Part shown: piece after piece, positions 5,622-20,822 of the stretch
Layout of the letters: each line of letters opens with the position of its first letter
Position numbering within the stretch: position 1 is the stretch's first letter
IMG/VR virus record: IMGVR_UViG_3300035145_002907
Coordinates: 1-21,596 of that record
Length of the DNA: 21,596 nt
Source of the DNA: a virus
Direction: 5' to 3' (one strand)
Notes under the pieces: model-generated
The model's database searches: none
What the model saw: only the letters and a program-made list of their open reading frames with translations
Told to the model about the DNA's origin: nothing
Position numbers and translations under genes: made by a program

Positions 5622-5629
5622 TATTTAGA
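5622..5629 (-). promoter_or_regulatory. Late-promoter-like box for the gp4 operon
   Basis: On the minus strand the sequence reads TCTAAATA, one mismatch from the T4 late consensus TATAAATA. It lies 22 bp upstream of the gp4 ATG, which fits a short leader. It overlaps the ATG of gp54 on the other strand. Confidence 0.45.
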
Positions 5630-6399
5630 TGGCGAATCTCTACGATGATTTGCGCAAGCAGCTAAAACGTGGCGCTGGTGTTGCCAAGTCTAACCAATTT
5701 AGAGTTACCATCCCAGCAATCTGGCAGCTTGATCTGAAAGGATTAGATGTCAGCAATGACACGCGAGAGTCGATGGAGTTGCTGTGTAGTCAAGCGTCAT
5801 TGCCTAGCGTGCAGGCAGCGACAGGACAAGTTAATGGATACTATACTGGACATAGTATGAAGTATCCGACGATGAAGATGTACAATGATCTGTCATTGAC
5901 TTTTATCTGTGATGCTAATATGACAGCTTATAAAGTCTTCCACGCTTGGTTTGATAAGATTTTCCAAGAGGTGGATAATAGTGGAAATGATATTGATATG
6001 ATGGAAGGGTGGACTCAAAGTCCTGACAGAGATAGAAATAGATTTACGCGAGTTGCTTACCCTGATCAGTATCAGATGTCACTTCTGGTTGATAAGTTTG
6101 AACCTGGACCTGTCAACAGATCTCAAACCAAATCAATGAGATATTGGTTCCAGAATGTCTACCCATACTCTATTGATGCTGTGCCTCTGGATGCTGGTAC
6201 CACTACACTAGTCACTTGTACAGTTAATTTATACTATGAAAGATTTGAAATTCAATACGAAGATGCTTTACAAGCTTTCAAATCTATGTCGCAATTAGAT
6301 CGTTATCCTTTACCAAAGTCACTTCGTAAACAGCTTAGAAGAATTGATGATAAGACCAGAAAGTTTTCAAAGAATTTGAAACAAGCGTTTGACATCTGA
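5629..6399 (+). CDS. 54: Baseplate tail tube initiator gp54
   Basis: This 256-aa protein (T4 gp54 is 320 aa) has a tail-tube-like pattern: SNQFRVTIPAIW near residue 20, LLCSQASLPSVQ about 55, GHSMKYPTMKMYNDLSLTF about 75, AYKVFHAWFDKI about 100, and a later YPYSIDAVPLD. This mirrors gp19/gp54-type proteins, in which the first tube ring assembles on the baseplate. The tail from 225 on is basic. It is the first gene of a plus-strand run, 29 bp from the divergently transcribed gp4, under the box at 5597-5604, and has no recognisable Shine-Dalgarno. A tail tube protein gp19 is the alternative but is usually shorter and lies near gp18. Confidence 0.75.
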   Translation: MANLYDDLRKQLKRGAGVAKSNQFRVTIPAIWQLDLKGLDVSNDTRESMELLCSQASLPSVQAATGQVNGYYTGHSMKYPTMKMYNDLSLTFICDANMTAYKVFHAWFDKIFQEVDNSGNDIDMMEGWTQSPDRDRNRFTRVAYPDQYQMSLLVDKFEPGPVNRSQTKSMRYWFQNVYPYSIDAVPLDAGTTTLVTCTVNLYYERFEIQYEDALQAFKSMSQLDRYPLPKSLRKQLRRIDDKTRKFSKNLKQAFDI

Positions 6400-6429: not shown

Positions 6430-7143
6430 ATGGCTTTACCAAAACTTGAGGTACCTTCGTATACTGCTGTTCTTCCCTCTACAGGGCAGACAATTAAGTA
6501 TAGACCTTTCCTCGTTAAAGAAGAGAAGACACTTCTCCTTGCTTTAGAATCTGAAGATCAAAAACAAATTCAGGATGCAGTGGTTACACTGCTTACTAAT
6601 TGCATCACGAGTCGCTTGAATGTCAAGAGACTTGCAATGTTTGATCTGGAATATTTGTTCCTGAAGATTCGTGCTAAGTCTGTAAGTGAATCTCTTGAGC
6701 TGAAAGTCACTTGTACAGATGATAATGAAACTCAAGTTGATGTTGAAATTAACTTAGAGGAAGTGGAAGTTAGCATACCTAAAGAACATACTGATATTAT
6801 TGAGCTGACTGAAGATGTGTCTGTCAAGATGAAGTATCCTTCTCTGGATCAGTTCATCAAAAATAATTTTGGTGACACTGAAACTAGTCCTGAAGAAGTA
6901 TTTGAAATGATTGCTGAATGCATTGATCAAATTATTGATGGTGATGAAGTCCACGAGTCTTCGTCGTCCAGTAAGAAAGAATTGGTTGCATTCATTGATA
7001 GTCTTACATCACAGCAGTTCCTTAAGATGCAAGAGTTCTTTGCGTCTATGCCTAAATTATCACATACATTCAGTGTAATTAATCCGAATACAAAAGAGAG
7101 ATGCGAGTATACCCTGGAGGGTTTAGCATCTTTTTTCGGGTAG
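6430..7143 (+). CDS. 26: Baseplate hub subunit gp26 (tail-assembly-chaperone-like)
   Basis: This 237-aa acidic protein (T4 gp26 is 208 aa) begins ALPKLEVPSYTAVLPSTGQTIKYRPFLVKEEK, typical of the T4 gp26/gp51 family; only the N-terminal part of that stretch is diagnostic. It is helical and charged in the second half, with a SSSSS linker near residue 182. It lies immediately upstream of the tape-measure-type gene, where tail assembly chaperones sit in many tailed phages. The end of the gene carries a slippery T TTT TTC heptamer two codons before the TAG stop, so a fraction of ribosomes probably continue in the -1 frame to make a roughly 295-aa fusion. No Shine-Dalgarno precedes the ATG. Confidence 0.85.
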   Translation: MALPKLEVPSYTAVLPSTGQTIKYRPFLVKEEKTLLLALESEDQKQIQDAVVTLLTNCITSRLNVKRLAMFDLEYLFLKIRAKSVSESLELKVTCTDDNETQVDVEINLEEVEVSIPKEHTDIIELTEDVSVKMKYPSLDQFIKNNFGDTETSPEEVFEMIAECIDQIIDGDEVHESSSSSKKELVAFIDSLTSQQFLKMQEFFASMPKLSHTFSVINPNTKERCEYTLEGLASFFG

Positions 7144-7180
7144 TGATGTCCTATAATACTCTAGAGAATTACTTTAGGAC
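7116..7180 (+). promoter_or_regulatory. Probable programmed -1 frameshift signal
   Basis: Three elements are in order. GGAGGG at 7116-7121 is a Shine-Dalgarno-like stimulator 9 nt before the slip site. T TTT TTC at 7131-7137 is in the zero frame as X XXY YYZ and is followed by GGG TAG. GTCCTA (7148-7153) pairs with TAGGAC (7175-7180) around a loop that itself contains the palindrome CTCTAGAG. The -1 frame passes through the gp26 stop and continues to TAA 7314-7316. Confidence 0.7.
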
Positions 7181-7316
7181 AAACTTCGCACTAATGCAGC
7201 ATCACAAATACAGTCTTACTGAGATTGAAAATATGATGCCGTGGGAAAGAGAAGTATACATTGCTCTCCTCCTCGCACACCTTGAAGAAGAGAAACTTAA
7301 ACAACAAACAGGGTAA
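7146..7316 (+). CDS. 51: gp51-like short frame, probably expressed by -1 frameshift from gp26
   Basis: Read from ATG 7146 this is 56 residues: a mostly helical protein with YSLTEIENMMPWEREVYI and LLLAHLEEEKLKQ. The pattern (short helix, MPWEREVY, acidic-basic helix ending in EEE/K) is the style of the downstream partner of frameshifted tail-assembly chaperones. No Shine-Dalgarno is placed for ATG 7146, and the frame is open back to 7101 in the -1 register of gp26, so the natural product is a fusion rather than a free protein. TAA 7314-7316 abuts the next ATG at 7317. T4 gp51 is much longer (249 aa), so the name gp51 rests on position and is tentative. Confidence 0.7.
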   Translation: MSYNTLENYFRTNFALMQHHKYSLTEIENMMPWEREVYIALLLAHLEEEKLKQQTG

Positions 7317-10300
7317 ATGGCGTCCGAACAGAAAATAACAGCGCTGCTTACGGTCAATAGTGCCCAGCTGAATGCGCAGAAGATCACTAACAATCTTTTA
7401 TCTGATGTCTTAAATGCTCAGATAAAAACTAATGGTCTTCTGGGGGCACAGAATGCTATTACTAAGAGGCGTATTAGTGCGGACAAGTTTGCTCAGCAAG
7501 AGAATGCTATTGAGAAGTTTAGACAAAAGAAAGCTGGTGGTAGTCTAAAGGATAAGGTAAAATTACCAGGCAAGATTAACTGGAAGAATGTTCTGGGTCT
7601 TGGTGCTCTTGCTCTTGGTGTTGGTGCCCTTGTCGCAGCTATTGATGGTGTATCTAATGGTCTTGCTGGTTTTGCTGATAGAATTGATGGCATTGCTCAA
7701 GGACTAGAAGACTTTGAAGTCAAGTTAAGAGAGACCGCATCCAAAGTTAGAGATTTCTTGACACCCATCGCTGGGTTTAGTATGTTTGGTTTGCGCCAAG
7801 CGTCTATGGGTGTTGACGCTGCCAAGTCTGGTAAGTATGCTACTACTGGTGGTAAAGTTCGTGGTGCTGTTGGTAGAGGGATAGTAAGAGGAGCGAAAGG
7901 GACTGTTGGATTAGCTGGTAGAGGTATTAAAGCTACTGGTAACCTAGCTCTCGATGGTGTTGAACTTGGTTTAAACAAAGTTGCTGGTACTAATACTGCT
8001 GCGCTAGCTGACAAACTAGATGACATTGCTATCAGACAGGGAGCACGTGCAGGTAGCACAACCCTAGCAACTGGTCTTACTCCTAAGACTTTAAAAGATT
8101 CTCTTATTTCTGCTACAAAAACTATCAGAGAAAGAGCTGCTGGTTTTGTAAGTAGTACAAGACAGGGAACAGGCAATGCTCTCAATGCAGTAAGAAATGC
8201 CCCTGGCAATCTCAATACACAGCGTAAGCTGTTTATGCAGGGCATCACTGGTGCCGATGATGTATCTGTTCTCCGCACTGCAGGTCGTCCCTTCCCGAAC
8301 GTTGCACGTGGTGCTGGTAGTCTTGCGGATGAAGTGGGTGGTTTCTTCCGTGCTGGTAGAGGTCTTAGAACAGGTGCTCAGAACGCTGTCAGTGCTACTA
8401 GACAAGCAGTCTCTGCAGCAACTCCGCAGGGACTCAAGCAGTTTATGGCAGTCTCGAAAGCTGCTGGTCCTCAAGCTGCAATCCTTGGTACCTTTGATGA
8501 CATCGTTAAGAACCTTAAGAACCTTAAGGTAAAAACTATTACCTCTTTGGGTAGTGCATTGAAAGCATTGCCTGGACAGTTTGCAACCTTAGGTAAGTCA
8601 TTAAAAACTTTTGGTGGTAGTGTCAAGACTGCTATTGCAAACTTTGATCTGGGTAAAGCTGCCATCCAAGTAAGTAAAGTTGGATCGCGTGGTGCTCAGG
8701 GTCTTGCTAGAGGTGCTGCTGGTATTGTCCGTGGTACTCCTGGTGCTGCTAGAGGTCTTGCCGATACACTTGCGAGAGTGAGAGCACCTAGGTCTCCGCT
8801 TCCTGGTGCACCACCATCTATGCTTCAGAGAGCTGGTGGTCTTGCTGGTGGTGCTGCGAAGGGTGCTGGGTCTATTGTCAAGCGCATTCCTATCCTTGGT
8901 TCCTTGATCTCTGCTGGTTTCGGTGCTCTGGAAGCGAACACTGAGGAGATGGACAGACTGAGGGCAGAGAATCCTCAGATGGATGACGAACAAATCAAAG
9001 CTGGTCTCGCTGATGGCACTCTGAAGAAAGACAAAGCGAAGATCATTGGTAGATCTGCTGGTGCTGGCGCAGGTGCTGGTGTCGGTACTGTGGTTGGTGG
9101 TATCCTGGGTAGTGCTCTTGGTCCTATCGGTACTGCTGTTGGTGCTGCAGCTGGTGCCTGGTTGGGTGAGAACGTTGGTAAGTTCCTGGGTGAAGGATTC
9201 GCTAACACATTCAAGTCATTCGACTGGGGTAAGACTTTCGGTCCAGTGATTACATCCTTCAAAGAACTTGCTGGTTCTATCACAGGTGCATTGGATACTG
9301 TCGCTGGTGCTTTTGGTATTAAAGGTGATGGAGAAGGTGGAAGTGGTGGATTTATTCAAGCTCTGAAGAACATCGGTAGAATCATTGGTGTTGTTGCTAA
9401 GATTCTGATGAAGGTCTTGGCACCAGCACTTCAGATTGTTGCTAAGACTATTAAAGGAATTATTGATGTAATCGCTGGTACTATTAGTGTTATCAGTGGA
9501 GTTATTCAAGGCACTATGGGATTTATCAAGAACATTATTGACAAAGTTCCTGATTGGTTGGGTGGTGATAAGCTTCGTAGTATGATTTCTGGTATGGAAG
9601 GTGCACTCAGTGGAGATGTCATCGGTAACATCAGTAATTTTGTTGATGGTGTAGATACTTCTCTTCCTAATGCTGAATCTGAATCTGAATCTGAACCTGG
9701 GAATGGTATGGGTGGTGGATTTAATCTGCTCAACCCGTTCTCTTGGTTCAGTGGTAAATCACAAGAGGCAATTGAAAGTAAAGACAAGAGCTATAGTAAT
9801 AAAACTTTGTCTGGTAGTCTCCTGAATAGAAGAAACGCTACCAACGAAGCGATTAGGATGATGCGTGGTCAAGGTGGTGGCAACCACAGCTTCGTTCCTA
9901 TTGGACGTGGTTATGGTATGGGTGGTCCTGCTGTGCGAGTTACCTCAAATCGTGGAATGCGTTGGGGTAAAATGCACCAAGGTACTGACATCGCTCCTAC
10001 TGGTAGCAAGTTGCATATGCCTCTTTACTTACCGAAGCGTGCTACAATTGTAGATAGTCGTGCTGAAGGAAACGGTGCTGGATATGGCAACTCGATTTAC
10101 TTCACCACCAGCGATGGCATTACCCATCTGTATGCTCATATGAAAAATAAGAGCAGACTTAAAGTTGGTCAGACATATCCAGCTGGAACACAGGTTGGAC
10201 TGATGGGTTACTCTGGAAACACAGTACCAAAAGGTCCTGATGGCACCCACCTTCACTGGGAAACAGGAACTAATGAAGCTGATGTGGGTCGTGCTGGCAG

Positions 10301-10742
10301 CAGTCTGTTCAATCCACTGTCGAAGTATAGTAAGTTTGCTCCTTTCCAAGGAACTCCTAGTGCAGATGGTGCTGACAGTGATTACACTGCTGAATCTCCA
10401 TCTGCATCAGACTATAGTGACCGTGGTTCTTCTCCTTTAGCGGTGTCCGCTGTCACCAGTCCAATGAGAGACTATGCGACAAACGTTCGCAATACTGGTG
10501 AAAGATTGCAGAAGAGTATGGAATCGCAGGGTATGGAATCTGGTCTTGCTGCTTCTCTTGGCGCAGCACTGGCACCGTTGGGCAACCTGAAGCAGTCTCT
10601 GATGGAAGCTGTAAGTGCTGGACGCCCTGCCCCTGGTGGAGGTTCTGATAATAGTAGTATGTCTGCTGATGGTGATGTTTCAATGTTCCCCACCTCCTCC
10701 CCAGTTAGGGATGGTGGTCACGTGTTCGCAGGAGATGTTTGA
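7317..10742 (+). CDS. Tape-measure-type tail protein with C-terminal M23 peptidase domain
   Basis: This is a 1141-aa Gly/Ala-rich protein. Residues about 91-120 and 581-617 are hydrophobic and Gly/Ala-rich (ALGVGALVAAIDG; GTVVGGILGSALGPIGTAVG), typical of tape measures, with long helical and basic stretches between. Another hydrophobic amphipathic run lies near 690-745. At about 885-985 there is a lysostaphin-like M23 fold: H887-x3-D891 (HQGTD), HLYAH, and H978-L-H980 (GTHLHWE), so the zinc-binding and catalytic residues are present and the domain should be an active cell-wall peptidase. The tail after 990 is Ser/Pro/Gly-rich. The position after gp26/51 and before the hub fits the T4 gene 29 slot, and the protein is much longer than gp29 (590 aa). 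The ATG directly follows the preceding TAA. Confidence 0.8.
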   Translation: MASEQKITALLTVNSAQLNAQKITNNLLSDVLNAQIKTNGLLGAQNAITKRRISADKFAQQENAIEKFRQKKAGGSLKDKVKLPGKINWKNVLGLGALALGVGALVAAIDGVSNGLAGFADRIDGIAQGLEDFEVKLRETASKVRDFLTPIAGFSMFGLRQASMGVDAAKSGKYATTGGKVRGAVGRGIVRGAKGTVGLAGRGIKATGNLALDGVELGLNKVAGTNTAALADKLDDIAIRQGARAGSTTLATGLTPKTLKDSLISATKTIRERAAGFVSSTRQGTGNALNAVRNAPGNLNTQRKLFMQGITGADDVSVLRTAGRPFPNVARGAGSLADEVGGFFRAGRGLRTGAQNAVSATRQAVSAATPQGLKQFMAVSKAAGPQAAILGTFDDIVKNLKNLKVKTITSLGSALKALPGQFATLGKSLKTFGGSVKTAIANFDLGKAAIQVSKVGSRGAQGLARGAAGIVRGTPGAARGLADTLARVRAPRSPLPGAPPSMLQRAGGLAGGAAKGAGSIVKRIPILGSLISAGFGALEANTEEMDRLRAENPQMDDEQIKAGLADGTLKKDKAKIIGRSAGAGAGAGVGTVVGGILGSALGPIGTAVGAAAGAWLGENVGKFLGEGFANTFKSFDWGKTFGPVITSFKELAGSITGALDTVAGAFGIKGDGEGGSGGFIQALKNIGRIIGVVAKILMKVLAPALQIVAKTIKGIIDVIAGTISVISGVIQGTMGFIKNIIDKVPDWLGGDKLRSMISGMEGALSGDVIGNISNFVDGVDTSLPNAESESESEPGNGMGGGFNLLNPFSWFSGKSQEAIESKDKSYSNKTLSGSLLNRRNATNEAIRMMRGQGGGNHSFVPIGRGYGMGGPAVRVTSNRGMRWGKMHQGTDIAPTGSKLHMPLYLPKRATIVDSRAEGNGAGYGNSIYFTTSDGITHLYAHMKNKSRLKVGQTYPAGTQVGLMGYSGNTVPKGPDGTHLHWETGTNEADVGRAGSSLFNPLSKYSKFAPFQGTPSADGADSDYTAESPSASDYSDRGSSPLAVSAVTSPMRDYATNVRNTGERLQKSMESQGMESGLAASLGAALAPLGNLKQSLMEAVSAGRPAPGGGSDNSSMSADGDVSMFPTSSPVRDGGHVFAGDV

Positions 10743-12352: not shown

Positions 12353-12580
12353 ATGGACTCTATCGAAAAACATATCGAGGCAGACAAAGAGATTCTTCAG
12401 AATCCTATGACCTCACCGCAGCAACGTCGTCACATTGAAGGCGAACTGCACGATTTAGAAGATTGGGTTGAGCATCACAAAGAAGAGATTGAAGCAGGAG
12501 ATCATCACGATCCTTCACCTCTTGAACTATACTGCGACCAGGAACCTGGCGCACCTGAGTGTAAAATTCACGATAACTAA
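12353..12580 (+). CDS. cp12: CP12-like Calvin-cycle inhibitor
   Basis: This 75-aa protein ends in PLELYCDQEPGAPECKIHDN, the C-terminal CP12 signature: Cys61 and Cys70 separated by 8 residues, preceded by PLELYC and followed by a short acidic tail that inserts into the active site of GAPDH. In CP12 the cysteine pair forms a redox-controlled disulfide, and the protein clamps GAPDH and phosphoribulokinase into an inactive complex. The N-terminal half is helical and hydrophilic (IEKHIEADKEILQNP); the N-terminal cysteine pair of some host forms is absent. Cyanophage CP12 is a known auxiliary metabolic gene thought to redirect carbon from the Calvin cycle to the pentose phosphate pathway. Its TAA overlaps the spike ATG (TAATG). 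Confidence 0.9.
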   Translation: MDSIEKHIEADKEILQNPMTSPQQRRHIEGELHDLEDWVEHHKEEIEAGDHHDPSPLELYCDQEPGAPECKIHDN

Positions 12581-15500
12581 TGTCAGATAACTCTTACAAT
12601 GTAGCTAACTCGCAAGACCTTTTTGCTCAACCGCAAAGAGGTTTTGTTGAGGATGTACGTGACCCAAAAGGTTCGGGACGGGTTAAAGTAAGAATTATTA
12701 ATAAGGAGTTCCGTACTGGAGACTCTGGTCAATTTATACCTGTCCCTGCAACCGAAGATTTACCGTGGGCAGCTGTGCTGATGCCCACCAATGCATCGGG
12801 TGGTTCTGCTACCTCTGCATCTAGTCACAACATTAAATCTGGTGATATTGTTTGGGTCAGCTATGTTGGTGGCGATACCCGACAGAGACTAGTCATTGGA
12901 TCGACAGGTGCTGTTGCAAATTCTAGTTCAAAAAAACCAGAGGATGCATACGGTCCTCTGCAGAGATATATCTCTCAAGATAAAGGAACAGGTGACTCAC
13001 CTAATCCTGCATCCCACGTCACAGCTGATCAACAAGAAAAGAATAAGAACTTGGGCGTCAAACCTATTGGCGCTCTGGGTGATGAGGATGAGAGTCGTCT
13101 ACTTGATTCTCTGAAGCAACCATATAGTCCTGGTGGCAATCCAGCTGGTGATTTTACAGTCACTGTTGCAGATGGTAAGTGTGCATCTAACCCTGCAACT
13201 AAGATGGATAGCATCTTAGCTGAGTTCTTTGGTGCTGTACAGTCTACAAATGGTAACATCGGTTCTTACTATATCAGTAAGTATACTGGCGAGTTGTTTG
13301 ACATTCAAACCATTGCTAAAGGATACATCAGTAGAATTCAGAGCATCGTTGGAGCTCTGATTTCTAGAGCTTTTGGTGAGCTGATGGCGAAACTGAAAGA
13401 AGTTATTCAAAAACTGGTGCAGGCATTGCTTGCTCCTTTGCCTGGTTGTTTGAAGCAAGTCGTTGATTGGTTTACTCAAGCTTTGGAAAAGCTGGGTTGC
13501 TCTATGGGCGACATCTTTGAAAGAGTTGCTGACTTTGTAACCAGCACTCTTGAGGGATATGTTGGTAGTGTTGTTAACTGGGCTGCCTGTCAGACTAAGC
13601 GTTTGGTGGATGGTATTTTAGGTAACATCCTTGGAGAAATTACAGGTGTTATTGATAGTGTCTTCGGTAGTATTTCTTCTGTCTTAGGTGCTATCGGTTC
13701 GATGGGTGATGTTGTGGGTGGTGCCATCAGTGCAGTGATGTCTATCCTTGGCATTTCTTGTACTGGTACTGCAGCTTGCTCTAGTGGTCCTCCGAAGAAG
13801 TCTAGTAAGTCTGGTGCTTTCGCTGGTCTGAAGGGTGGTTACAATGATCTGGATGAGATTCTGGCAGGTCTCCAAAGTGGTCCGCAGTTCCCAATCGATG
13901 GTGTCTGTGATGCTGCTACAGTTCCAGCAGTTCCAGCAACTGAAGTCAACGTTTGGGGTCCTCAGCTTTATGATGAGATCGATGATGGTAAGATCGATGA
14001 TGACGATGACATCGATGATCTGAATGATGACGATGAATCTAAAAAGAGAAAGAGAAAGAATAGAAAGAATAAAAATGATGGAAGACGAGGGAAAGATGAT
14101 CCCAATGATCCAGAAGGACGCTCTAGAAGGATAACACGTAGAAAGAGAAAGGCACGTTGTGCACAACGCTTCTTCCGTGTTGGTGATGCACGAGGCGTTA
14201 AAGGTCAAAAGATTCCTGTTAAATTAAGAAGGAATGGTGACCTCTCAAATCAATCTGCTATTAGTTACTATACAGTTGATGGTACTGCCAAAGCTGGTGA
14301 AGACTACTGTCCTGCTTCGGGATATATTGGGTTTGGTACGGGGCAAGGTGAAACTCAAATCGAAATCATTACACTTAATACTCAAAGTGCTTCTTCTGCA
14401 TTCGCAGAAGTCGAAGTTGATATTGAATTCTTTGTAGATGATGATCCCGACAGGAGTGGTGTTGCTCTCGATGGATTTACCATCGGGGACAAAACTTTCA
14501 CGAGAAAAAATATTGCCACTGCACATACTCAAAAGAAAACAGTAAAACTCATTGCTCCGATTCGTGATACTACTCAGAAAGGCAAAGAGAAAAAGAGATA
14601 TAGAATCAACTATATCAATCTTAATCCTGAGTATGCTACCCTCAATAAAAAACTGAAAGTTCAGGGTGGAAGAAAGAAAATTATCTTGGATGATAATATT
14701 TCTAACGGTATCGATATCAATGCGCAAATTAAAATCACAGCTGTAAGAGGAGGCACTGCTTTCTTTAGTGCTAATGGTCGTTTCATCGATGTTCAAGCTC
14801 GTCCTAAAAAAGAAAAGAAAACCCCAAACAGAGGTATAAAAGTTACCCAAGGTATTACTGAGGAAGCTGACGCAAACGGATGTAAGTACTTTTACGTCAA
14901 GATGAAGATGAACGACAGCTGTGGTAAGATCAGGAAAAAAACTGGTGTTGTCATTATGTGTCCTCCTGAGACTCAACCACCGCCAGTCAATCCTCCTACT
15001 GCTCCACCTGTTGACACCTTACCACCACCTCCTTCAATTCTCGAACTAGATGTTCCTTACTATGATCTGACACCTGATAGATCATCTGTATTTGAAGGTG
15101 AGATTGTTACGTTCACTCTTGATACAGCAAATGTTGAGGAAGGTGCGACGGTTAACTATACAATCGGTAGAGCTGAAACAGGTATCACAGTTGGTGATAT
15201 TGCCTGGATTGAACACAATGGTGCTAAGAGATATCCCTCAACTGATGCCGATTTGGCAGGAACTTTCACAGTTGGTGAAGATGGAAGTGATTCTATCCGA
15301 ATTAAACTTGCGGAAGATAATATCGCAGAAGACGATAGTGAAGTCTCCGAACAGATTATTGTTCAACTGAATGGACTTTCGGTTTCTGCTGGTTGTTTGG
15401 TCCTCGATCCTCTTGACATTGAAGAGAATCCTAATGCTGGTAGTATTACTGTTGACATTGTTCCTGAGCGTACTGATATTAGTACGTGCGAATCGATGGA

Positions 15501-16383
15501 TATCACTATCAACACTACAAACATCCAAGATGGTACTAACTTACCATATACAATCTTTGGTACGCAGCTTAATGAAGAGGACATTGTTCAGGATACAGAA
15601 GGCACTGTTCTTATCCAAAATGGTATTGGAACTTTCACTTTAAGTATTGATTGTGACCGTATCTCTGGTACTACAGATGGTACAGTTACATTTGCTATCC
15701 CTGACTTCGGAGCTTCTGCTACAATCATCCTCAATAAAAATTCTGATGCCGATACCGATACCAGTACTGGTGATGATGGTAATTTATTTGATGATGACGG
15801 AGTAACTAATGATGACCTGAATGATCGTGACGGATTTGATGGCAACGGTGAGGTTGTATTCGGTCAACCCATCATCGATGATGATGGTGGCATCATTGAC
15901 ATCCCTGTTGTGGATTCTGGACACAGATTCTTAGCAACACCCTTTATGTCTATTGAAAGTAACACTGGATTTGGTGCATTTGTTGAACCTATTCTGAACA
16001 GCAATGGATATCTTACTAGAGTGAGAGTCCGTAGAGGTGGTCAAGGTTACACTGGACAGAGAAAACCAGATGATGTTATTTGTCAGCTCGTTGGGATTAC
16101 TTTAACTAATGTTGGTGGTCTATACGATAGAGCTCCTCTAGTTTTTGTTAATGGAGACAGTTCTATTGCAGAAGCAACTATCTCTCCTGAAGGATTTGTA
16201 AATAACATTGTTCTTCTCAGAGCTGATATGCAGTACACTGAAGTACCTGACATCATTATTACTGGTGGTGGAGGATTCGGTGCCAAAGCAAAAGCTGATC
16301 TACAGTGTGTTCCTGAAGATCAATCACAACTTATTCTGCAGACCCTTGCTAAGGATCCTGCTAACTATGTGGATTGCCCCTAA
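12580..16383 (+). CDS. Giant OB-fold baseplate spike protein, gp5-like, with Calx-beta-like domains
   Basis: This is a 1267-aa multidomain protein. Residues about 1-110 form a gp5/VgrG-type OB-fold: GFVEDVRDPKGSGRVKVRI, LPWAAVLMPT, and SGDIVWVSYVGGD with RLVIGST. Residues about 235-405 are amphipathic to hydrophobic helices (IVGALISRAFGELMAKL; VVGGAISAVMSILG). About 465-525 an acidic stretch (DDDDDIDDLNDDDE) is followed directly by a basic one (KKRKRKNRKNKN). About 530-640 resembles a Calx-beta repeat (YYTVDGTAKAGEDY). A proline-rich linker lies near 796-820, then two more Ig/Calx-like units, an acidic patch near 1065-1090, and C-terminal G-G-x-G-Y modules. The T4 gp5 lysozyme domain is not seen and the beta-helix is in the next gene. 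ATG overlaps the cp12 stop. Confidence 0.7.
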   Translation: MSDNSYNVANSQDLFAQPQRGFVEDVRDPKGSGRVKVRIINKEFRTGDSGQFIPVPATEDLPWAAVLMPTNASGGSATSASSHNIKSGDIVWVSYVGGDTRQRLVIGSTGAVANSSSKKPEDAYGPLQRYISQDKGTGDSPNPASHVTADQQEKNKNLGVKPIGALGDEDESRLLDSLKQPYSPGGNPAGDFTVTVADGKCASNPATKMDSILAEFFGAVQSTNGNIGSYYISKYTGELFDIQTIAKGYISRIQSIVGALISRAFGELMAKLKEVIQKLVQALLAPLPGCLKQVVDWFTQALEKLGCSMGDIFERVADFVTSTLEGYVGSVVNWAACQTKRLVDGILGNILGEITGVIDSVFGSISSVLGAIGSMGDVVGGAISAVMSILGISCTGTAACSSGPPKKSSKSGAFAGLKGGYNDLDEILAGLQSGPQFPIDGVCDAATVPAVPATEVNVWGPQLYDEIDDGKIDDDDDIDDLNDDDESKKRKRKNRKNKNDGRRGKDDPNDPEGRSRRITRRKRKARCAQRFFRVGDARGVKGQKIPVKLRRNGDLSNQSAISYYTVDGTAKAGEDYCPASGYIGFGTGQGETQIEIITLNTQSASSAFAEVEVDIEFFVDDDPDRSGVALDGFTIGDKTFTRKNIATAHTQKKTVKLIAPIRDTTQKGKEKKRYRINYINLNPEYATLNKKLKVQGGRKKIILDDNISNGIDINAQIKITAVRGGTAFFSANGRFIDVQARPKKEKKTPNRGIKVTQGITEEADANGCKYFYVKMKMNDSCGKIRKKTGVVIMCPPETQPPPVNPPTAPPVDTLPPPPSILELDVPYYDLTPDRSSVFEGEIVTFTLDTANVEEGATVNYTIGRAETGITVGDIAWIEHNGAKRYPSTDADLAGTFTVGEDGSDSIRIKLAEDNIAEDDSEVSEQIIVQLNGLSVSAGCLVLDPLDIEENPNAGSITVDIVPERTDISTCESMDITINTTNIQDGTNLPYTIFGTQLNEEDIVQDTEGTVLIQNGIGTFTLSIDCDRISGTTDGTVTFAIPDFGASATIILNKNSDADTDTSTGDDGNLFDDDGVTNDDLNDRDGFDGNGEVVFGQPIIDDDGGIIDIPVVDSGHRFLATPFMSIESNTGFGAFVEPILNSNGYLTRVRVRRGGQGYTGQRKPDDVICQLVGITLTNVGGLYDRAPLVFVNGDSSIAEATISPEGFVNNIVLLRADMQYTEVPDIIITGGGGFGAKAKADLQCVPEDQSQLILQTLAKDPANYVDCP

Positions 16384-17607: not shown

Positions 17608-18249
17608 ATGTTTGAACTCAATACGTCCTCTAGGGTCAAAACGGAGTATATTCTAGGATCCCCTGTCTACTATATCGACGATTTTTACCAAAATCCCGAT
17701 GAAGTAGCAAATTATCTTTTTAATCGTGATGTGCCACTATGGAAAATTGACGAAAAACCCAATTTTAATTCAGTTCATTTTTATGACCGTAGGTTCATTA
17801 CAGCTGATGATAGAGTTGGGTCTGCATACAATTTCCTAGCATCTGTCTGTAAGTCGCGATATCGCGAAAAAGTGATCAATACCAATATGATCCGATTCGT
17901 GAAAAACGACTTTAATGATTATGATCACAAATACTGGTGGCCACATACAGATAGTGGTTACAACGGTATTGTGTACTTTAACAAGGATGAAGAGAATTCG
18001 GGTACTAACCTATATGACCCGAAAGTGATGGATCATCCAAATTGGCATAAATTCAGCAAATATCCAGAACAGTATCTTTGCTGGACATCGAAAAATAACT
18101 TCGATGTGGTCAAAAGCTTTAAATCAGTCTATAATAGAGCAGTGTTGTTTGACGGTAGTAAATTCCCTCACGGGATGAATATCACAAATGACCGCTTTTT
18201 CGGAGAAGAGTATCGATGTAATCAGGTATTCTTCTTTAAGCGAGCGTGA
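17608..18249 (+). CDS. 2-oxoglutarate/Fe(II)-oxygenase-like protein
   Basis: This is a 213-aa soluble protein. W110-W111-P112-H113-T-D115-S followed by GIVYFN, then FPHGMNI with H188, and R203 in EYRCNQVFFFK, give the H-x-D...H...R order of a double-stranded beta-helix dioxygenase that binds iron and 2-oxoglutarate. The substrate is unknown. Such small oxygenase-like proteins are frequent in cyanophages. The start is ATG 17608, directly behind the conserved leader. The last three codons (CGA GCG TGA) are inside the 5' end of tRNA-Leu. The alternative is a catalytically inactive member of the fold. Confidence 0.65.
   Translation: MFELNTSSRVKTEYILGSPVYYIDDFYQNPDEVANYLFNRDVPLWKIDEKPNFNSVHFYDRRFITADDRVGSAYNFLASVCKSRYREKVINTNMIRFVKNDFNDYDHKYWWPHTDSGYNGIVYFNKDEENSGTNLYDPKVMDHPNWHKFSKYPEQYLCWTSKNNFDVVKSFKSVYNRAVLFDGSKFPHGMNITNDRFFGEEYRCNQVFFFKRA
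18107..18135 (+). promoter_or_regulatory. Possible internal promoter for tRNA-Leu
   Basis: TATAAT at 18130-18135 has a partial -35, TGGTCA, 17 bp upstream (4 of 6 matches). It is inside the coding sequence, about 100 bp before the tRNA. The TATAAT may be chance coding sequence. Confidence 0.25.
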
Positions 18250-18323
18250 CGGAATCGGTAGACGTATCGGACTTAAAATCCGCTGATGGCAACATCGTGG
18301 GGGTTCAAGTCCCCCCGCTCGCA
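18240..18323 (+). tRNA. tRNA-Leu (anticodon UAA)
   Basis: The acceptor GCGAGCG (18240-18246) pairs with CGCTCGC (18316-18322), with discriminator A18323. The anticodon loop CTTAAAA carries TAA (UUA codons). The class II long variable arm is GATG-GCAA-CATC. The T arm is GGGGG-TTCAAGT-CCCCC. CCA is not encoded. Its first 10 nt overlap the end of the upstream gene, including the TGA stop. Confidence 0.95.
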
Positions 18324-20730: not shown

Positions 20731-20734
20731 TCAT

Positions 20735-20806
20735 TCCTCTTTAGCTCAGCGGTAGAGCGAACGACTGTTAATCGTTTGGTCCCTGGTTCGATCCCAGGAA
20801 GGGGAG
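20735..20806 (+). tRNA. tRNA-Asn (anticodon GUU)
   Basis: The acceptor TCCTCTT (20735-20741) pairs with AAGGGGA (20799-20805), with one G-U pair, and discriminator G20806. The D stem is GCTC/GAGC. The anticodon stem AACGA/TCGTT has loop CTGTTAA and anticodon GTT at 20767-20769. The T arm is CCTGG-TTCGATC-CCAGG. CCA is not encoded. It reads AAC and AAU codons. Confidence 0.95.
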
Positions 20807-20822
20807 TTTACTTTTTTCTGTT

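Follow-up and report, generated by a model that had tools for sequence, protein, structure and literature searches.

Downstream of gp26, a gene in a run of T4-like tail genes, the sequence of gp51 lies open in the −1 register, and the locus raises the question of whether the two are separate genes or one gene read with and without a programmed frameshift. The junction was studied in what we call the window, the whole 21,596-nucleotide (21.6-kb) stretch of DNA from a marine T4-like virus analysed here (IMG/VR record IMGVR_UViG_3300035145_002907), a fragment which holds one PF12322 gene, the one with the shift signal. From its sequence and from that of its relatives we consider it very likely that gp26 and gp51 constitute one gene with two products, a short chaperone of 237 aa and a long form of 295 aa arising by a −1 slip at T TTT TTC. 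The relevant features are given below.

5629–6399, plus strand: tail-tube-like gene upstream of gp26 (PF23849, E 3e-35; PF06841, E 5e-7)
6430–7143, plus strand: gp26 (237 aa), putative short tail assembly chaperone, TAC-N (PF12322 T4_baseplate, E 3e-71; phrog_150, E 5e-78)
7116–7121, plus strand: Shine-Dalgarno-like motif GGAGGG inside gp26, seen in the sequence; the slip site follows after 9 nt
7131–7137, plus strand: T TTT TTC, candidate slippery heptamer in frame with gp26, seen in the sequence and conserved in relatives
7137–7316 (stop included), plus strand: gp51 part (59 aa) that a −1 slip would bring into frame (matches to phrog_634 and phrog_150)
7141–7143, plus strand: gp26 stop codon TAG, seen in the sequence
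7146–7148, plus strand: possible separate gp51 start ATG, lacking a good Shine-Dalgarno; a GTG also stands at 7143–7145
7148–7180, plus strand: downstream hairpin from predicted folding, arms GTCCTA (7148–7153) and TAGGAC (7175–7180)
7317–10742, plus strand: probable tape measure by position and length, 1141 aa; contains an M23 peptidase domain (PF01551, E 1e-11)

Elsewhere in the window, positions 12580–16383 encode a very long protein (1267 aa) that has a Calx-beta domain and matches Phage_base_V below threshold, and three tRNA genes are present, Thr(tgt) at 307–380, Leu(taa) at 18240–18323 and Asn(gtt) at 20734–20807.

The end of gp26 reads GCA TCT TTT TTC GGG TAG. The initial annotation had placed GGAGGG, the heptamer, GGG TAG and the stem at 7148–7180 where they are indeed found, and it had correctly assigned the heptamer to the gp26 frame and the sequence MPWEREVY to the −1 frame. 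The latter has no stop codon from before 7101 until the one at 7314–7316. Its part from 7146 to 7313 matches phrog_634 (E 4e-27) and positions 240–277 of phrog_150 (E 5e-5); as phrog_150 is the gp26 family, the match suggested that gp26 and gp51 are one protein in some phages. The bare heptamer was rejected as evidence, for TTTTTTC occurs nine times in the window against 5.3 expected and at least nine times in 6 of 100 shuffles. Since the motif is not rare by chance, the case rests on position, frame and conservation.

Conservation was followed in two sets of relatives. In the first, composed of the window and the best 80 of 599 IMG/VR matches, all 81 sequences carry T TTT TTC in frame and gp51 in the −1 frame; close relatives are over-represented there because only the best 80 were retained. 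The wider set, which includes the named phages P-HM2, MC09, P19, XZ1, phiM19, OLIVR6, AF3 and Mendera, comprises 195 loci and the window, and a gp26-family match was found in all 196 sequences. Four junctions that run off their contigs (L141, L162, L163, L178) and four T4-type loci (L087, L094–L096) were set aside. Among the matches listed, 169 of the 188 readable junctions of gp26 relatives have TTTTTT(C/T/G) in frame with gp51 in the −1 frame, of which 146 are distinct over 180 nt, though not independent of one another. The base after TTTTTT is C in 153, T in 15 and G in one. Thus, a heptamer of the form X XXY YYZ precedes the zero-frame stop in the window and in these 169 junctions, and gp51 occupies the −1 frame in every one of them, which supports the programmed frameshift put forward in the initial annotation.

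Further support was obtained from the spacing. Slip site and gp51 core are 17 codons apart in each of the 159 junctions with the core pattern (ten are without it), while the gp26 stop lies 0, 3, 6, 9 or 24 nt past the heptamer among relatives. The fixed distance to gp51 and the shifting stop suggest that the slip site belongs with gp51 and not with the end of gp26.

The initial annotation described the −1 frame as lacking its own ribosome-binding site. No good Shine-Dalgarno precedes the short frame in the window, but ATG 7146 and GTG 7143 are both present in the gp51 frame. Free gp51 could therefore also be made in the window from ATG 7146. Across the family, 75 of the 146 distinct junctions have an ATG in the interval from slip site to core, preceded by a Shine-Dalgarno-like motif in three of them and by none in 72; the other 71 have no ATG there. 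Counting ATG, GTG and TTG as usual starts, and leaving AUU-like starts outside the count, 43 of the 169 junctions (35 of 146 distinct ones) offer gp51 none in its frame before the core is reached.

These counts bear on two readings in which gp51 is also, or exclusively, made on its own. The first combines both routes, with a long fusion made by the slip and a free gp51 made by restart at ATG 7146. It is compatible with the frameshift and fits the co-occurrence of heptamer and ATG in the window and in those 75 junctions, but the 72 ATGs without a Shine-Dalgarno-like motif and the 71 junctions without such an ATG make it somewhat unlikely. The second holds that gp51 is only a separate small protein, made by restart at ATG 7146 (or GTG 7143) after gp26, and that the poly-T run is incidental. 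The same 75 ATGs can be cited for it, as can the named records, which list gp51 as its own gene, and three Vibrio phages with TAATG and no heptamer (D506, K475 and SD25). However, restart gives no account of the 43 junctions without any usual start, nor does it explain the heptamer, which is present in every one of these junctions. We therefore regard a restart without any slip as very improbable, and the −1 slip remains the preferred source of the long form.

The initial annotation had named heptamer loss with both frames persisting as evidence against a frameshift. No such case exists among the 81 close sequences, but in the wider set 19 of 188 junctions retain both reading frames and lack the heptamer. 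They belong to Ackermannviridae or their IMG/VR relatives and to two similar Vibrio phages, and were grouped separately, D506 and K475, whose records give no classification, having been assigned to this group after inspection of their ends. D506, K475 and SD25, with their TAATG at the junction, may restart. The Kuttervirus CBA120 (L088) and 15 IMG/VR relatives (L181–L195) have TAATT where the Vibrio relatives have the ATG, and in all 16 the first eleven −1-frame codons, beginning with the base that precedes the gp26 stop, are free of ATG, GTG and TTG. In CBA120 the first start candidate, GTG-ATG, sits inside the conserved helix. Comparison of L181 with L192 revealed that the 20 nt from the gp26 stop onward are identical while gp26 itself is ~71% identical. 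Kuttervirus gp51 may begin at AUU or be reached by a shift at an undescribed site.

The heptamer is flanked by elements of the kind that stimulate −1 frameshifting. Upstream, GAGGG or GGAGGG ends exactly 9 nt before it in 107 of 169 junctions and other purine-rich motifs occur in most of the others; none of the Shine-Dalgarno-like motifs sought was found in 9 of 169. The Glu codon at this position is GAG in 94 of 113 cases, compared with 30% elsewhere. Downstream, RNA structure was predicted at 13 positions in 72 of 143 distinct junctions. It peaks in the 55-nt stretch starting 6 nt past the heptamer, with a mean z of −1.83 and 78% of junctions below −1; stretches starting at 0 and 12 nt gave mean z values of −1.42 and −0.92, and the ten other starts ranged from −0.79 to +0.39.

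In the window, the hairpin stretch 7142–7190 folds with z −2.68 (1 of 200 shuffles as good), while folding over the longer stretch 7138–7215 is weak (z −1.06; 33 of 200 as good). Five to six of the six stem pairs are kept in the five close relatives compared, and in two relatives (L017, L039) one pair has changed on both sides from C-G to T-A. The exact stem was rejected as a family-wide feature, as only two to three of the six positions pair in 102 of 146 distinct junctions; the predicted hairpins vary from clade to clade. The stem proposed in the initial annotation is thus retained for the window and its close relatives, but not over the longer stretch nor for the whole family. The likeness to E. 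coli dnaX drawn there is borne out, with an upstream Shine-Dalgarno, a heptamer, a downstream hairpin and a −1 shift common to both. The two differ in the heptamer, A AAA AAG in dnaX and T TTT TTC here, and in the outcome, since the dnaX shift leads to the shorter product and the shift in the window would lead to the longer one.

These elements also bear on the reading that a polymerase slipping on the T run, and not the ribosome, creates the second frame. The run of six T is indeed present, though six T make a short run for transcript slippage, and the conserved Shine-Dalgarno spacing, together with the structure downstream, speaks for ribosomal slippage, so that polymerase slippage is highly improbable.

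Natural fusions of the two frames provide a comparison for the putative long form. In Krischvirus MIZ3, gp26 and gp51 lie on opposite strands and both are full-length PF12322 proteins, a short gp26 and a long gp51 encoded by separate paralogous genes. Of the two, only MIZ3 gp51 has a C-terminal part corresponding to the gp51 frame of cyanophages; this protein reaches the end of phrog_150 and matches phrog_634. An alignment of the conceptual long form of the window with MIZ3 gp51 spans residues 23–287 (E 3e-7), compared with a partial alignment at E 0.006 for the gp26 of the window alone, and a profile of shifted junctions aligns across the slip, apart from a single gap, with gp51 of MIZ3 and RB51. 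Hence the open −1 frame carries a known domain and is colinear with an in-frame fusion that exists in nature (gp51 of MIZ3 and RB51). PF12322 is present once in 22 of 24 records and twice in two, both T4-type and nearly the same phage, though some records may be incomplete. At the level of sequence, short and long isoforms are thus encoded either by one locus or by two paralogs.

Where the long form has its own gene, the slip site is missing. In-frame TTTTTT near the end of the short gene was found in none of 11 two-gene phages, eight of them tested by script and three (MIZ3, Taquito, phiEap-3) read from their codons, with those of Taquito and phiEap-3 counted as short paralogs from their ends only. 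In the heptamer-bearing junctions the slippery coding is present at all 146 distinct sites (145 Phe-Phe; Phe-Leu, TTT TTG, in AF3), while Phe-Phe elsewhere in the same loci is coded in this way in only 14 of 274 cases, the control being open frames of at least 150 codons, real genes or not. The reading that the heptamer is retained because gp26 must end in Phe-Phe draws on the invariance of this pair near the end of 57 aligned gp26 proteins and on its retention in 5 of the 11 short genes, but it is contradicted by the codon data and can practically be dismissed, for all five use TTC TTT, slippery coding is uncommon elsewhere, and the codon preceding the heptamer ends in T in 169 of 169 junctions against ~61% expected.

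What gp26 might do was approached through its predicted structure and its neighbours. The model has a pLDDT of 87.6, and its residues 1–85 superimpose on the HK97 tail assembly chaperone 2ob9 in VIA-align with Z 7.0 and an rmsd of 4.6 over 84 residues, a Z of about 7 being within the range that unrelated folds and common arrangements can reach. The next rows are 3klu YqbN (6.7), 3fgx (6.5) and 5ir0 (4.7), all three uncharacterised by title, YqbN being a phage-type tail protein; the fifth row drops to 2.5. In Foldseek, 2ob9 had the highest probability (0.90) and the second-best E-value (0.59). With a named chaperone as the best match and the top rows standing apart, we have moderate confidence that the modelled N-terminal domain has a tail-assembly-chaperone-like fold. 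A sequence-profile search of solved structures gave no relevant match, and beyond about residue 95 no fold match scoring above 2.5 appeared in the VIA-align list. For comparison, the model of a T4-type long-form gp51 (L094) has low confidence in its C-terminal part.

The order of genes at the locus is a tube-like gene, gp26, gp51 and a long tape-measure-like gene, which matches V-G-T-H of lambda. The initial annotation had stated that the tape-measure gene follows. A 1141-aa protein does stand at the right position, but PHROGs give no tape-measure name to the product of 7317–10742, and this identity is only probable. It relies on position and on weak matches in other phages, where four of seven genes at the same place or one further match a tape-measure PHROG at E ≤0.01 (XZ1, 3e-7; phiM19, 1e-5; OLIVR6, 0.005; AF3, 0.0095) and the tested genes of Mendera, P19 and MC09 do not. 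The fold match, the tube-like gene upstream and the 1141-aa M23 protein downstream make it most likely that gp26 and gp51 are lambda G/GT-like, and the chaperone logic attributed to this locus in the initial annotation is in agreement with both the domain resemblance and the gene order.

In lambda, the short form coats the tape measure while the long form recruits tube subunits. By a corresponding scheme for the window, most ribosomes would terminate at TAG 7141, giving the short chaperone of 237 aa. We infer that in the cell a minority would pause at T TTT TTC and slip back by one base, with the upstream GGAGGG binding the ribosome and the downstream hairpin assisting the slip. These ribosomes would continue to 7313 and yield the long form (TAC-NC), the junction peptide of which would span EGLASFFRVVMSYN. 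By analogy with lambda G/GT, the short form may coat the tape measure and the C-terminal helices of the long form may recruit tail-tube subunits.

Both lambda gpG/gpGT and HK97 gp13 consist of a short form and a −1-shifted long form encoded between tube and tape-measure genes, and the HK97 chaperone has an N-terminal-domain fold similar to the gp26 model. There are differences as well: the lambda heptamer is G GGA AAG compared with T TTT TTC in the window, and gp26, unlike the lambda and HK97 chaperones, continues for ~150 residues past the chaperone-like domain, with CxxC pairs in several relatives.

For the chaperones of T4-like phages, the idea of a frameshift has been published before in outline (PMC10885494, PMC12846349). 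A statement in the Adele phage paper (PMC12846349) gives poly-T shift signals as known in TAC-N genes of T4-like phages, crediting Vladimirov, Gautam & Davidson 2022. According to the PRFect paper (PMC10885494), which cites Vladimirov et al. 2022, a short gene and a long fusion gene take the place of a frameshift in some T4-like phages. As far as these two papers relate it, the work on T4-like gp26/gp51 chaperones (Virology 566:9–15) deals with the gene pair discussed here and with its short and long forms; the T4-type phages have two paralogous genes, whereas the window virus has one gene and a shift. The Adele phage paper also proposes a conserved −1 shift for TAC loci of Vandenendeviridae and Andersonviridae, at a poly-T site lying where the chaperone gene ends, with a different motif, GTTTTT, and in other families than that of the window virus. 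In the record of Acinetobacter phage Apostate, gp26 and gp51 are already labelled as tape measure protein assembly chaperones. Our search of the open-licence literature found no paper on a gp26-gp51 frameshift in cyanophages. In view of the PRFect and Adele statements and the Apostate labels, the present finding is a well-supported further case of a known phenomenon, to which are added the breadth of conservation, the start-less junctions and the Kuttervirus oddity.

The annotation of gp51 suffers in the existing records. In P-HM2 it is shortened to 30 aa (L081, 2289–2381), starting inside the conserved region (MIPWER...) and omitting about half of the conserved frame, and in Aeromonas phage P19 (L084, 2696–2881) and CBA120 (L088, 2771–2953) the homologue is unannotated.

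For the T4-like cyanophages, gp26, listed as a hub subunit, and gp51, listed as a separate assembly catalyst, are indicated to be one gene and a chaperone pair. The T4-type phages with two genes, whose short genes lack the slip site, offer a natural before-and-after case. We propose, tentatively and with rather less than even confidence, that a single frameshifted chaperone gene may be old in T4-type phages and that its long isoform may have been kept in different ways: by a start-less −1 slip, by duplication followed by loss of the slip site in the T4-type Straboviridae, or, in Ackermannviridae, by restart at the stop codon, with Kuttervirus, which has neither heptamer nor usual start at that place, perhaps using AUU or an undescribed shift.
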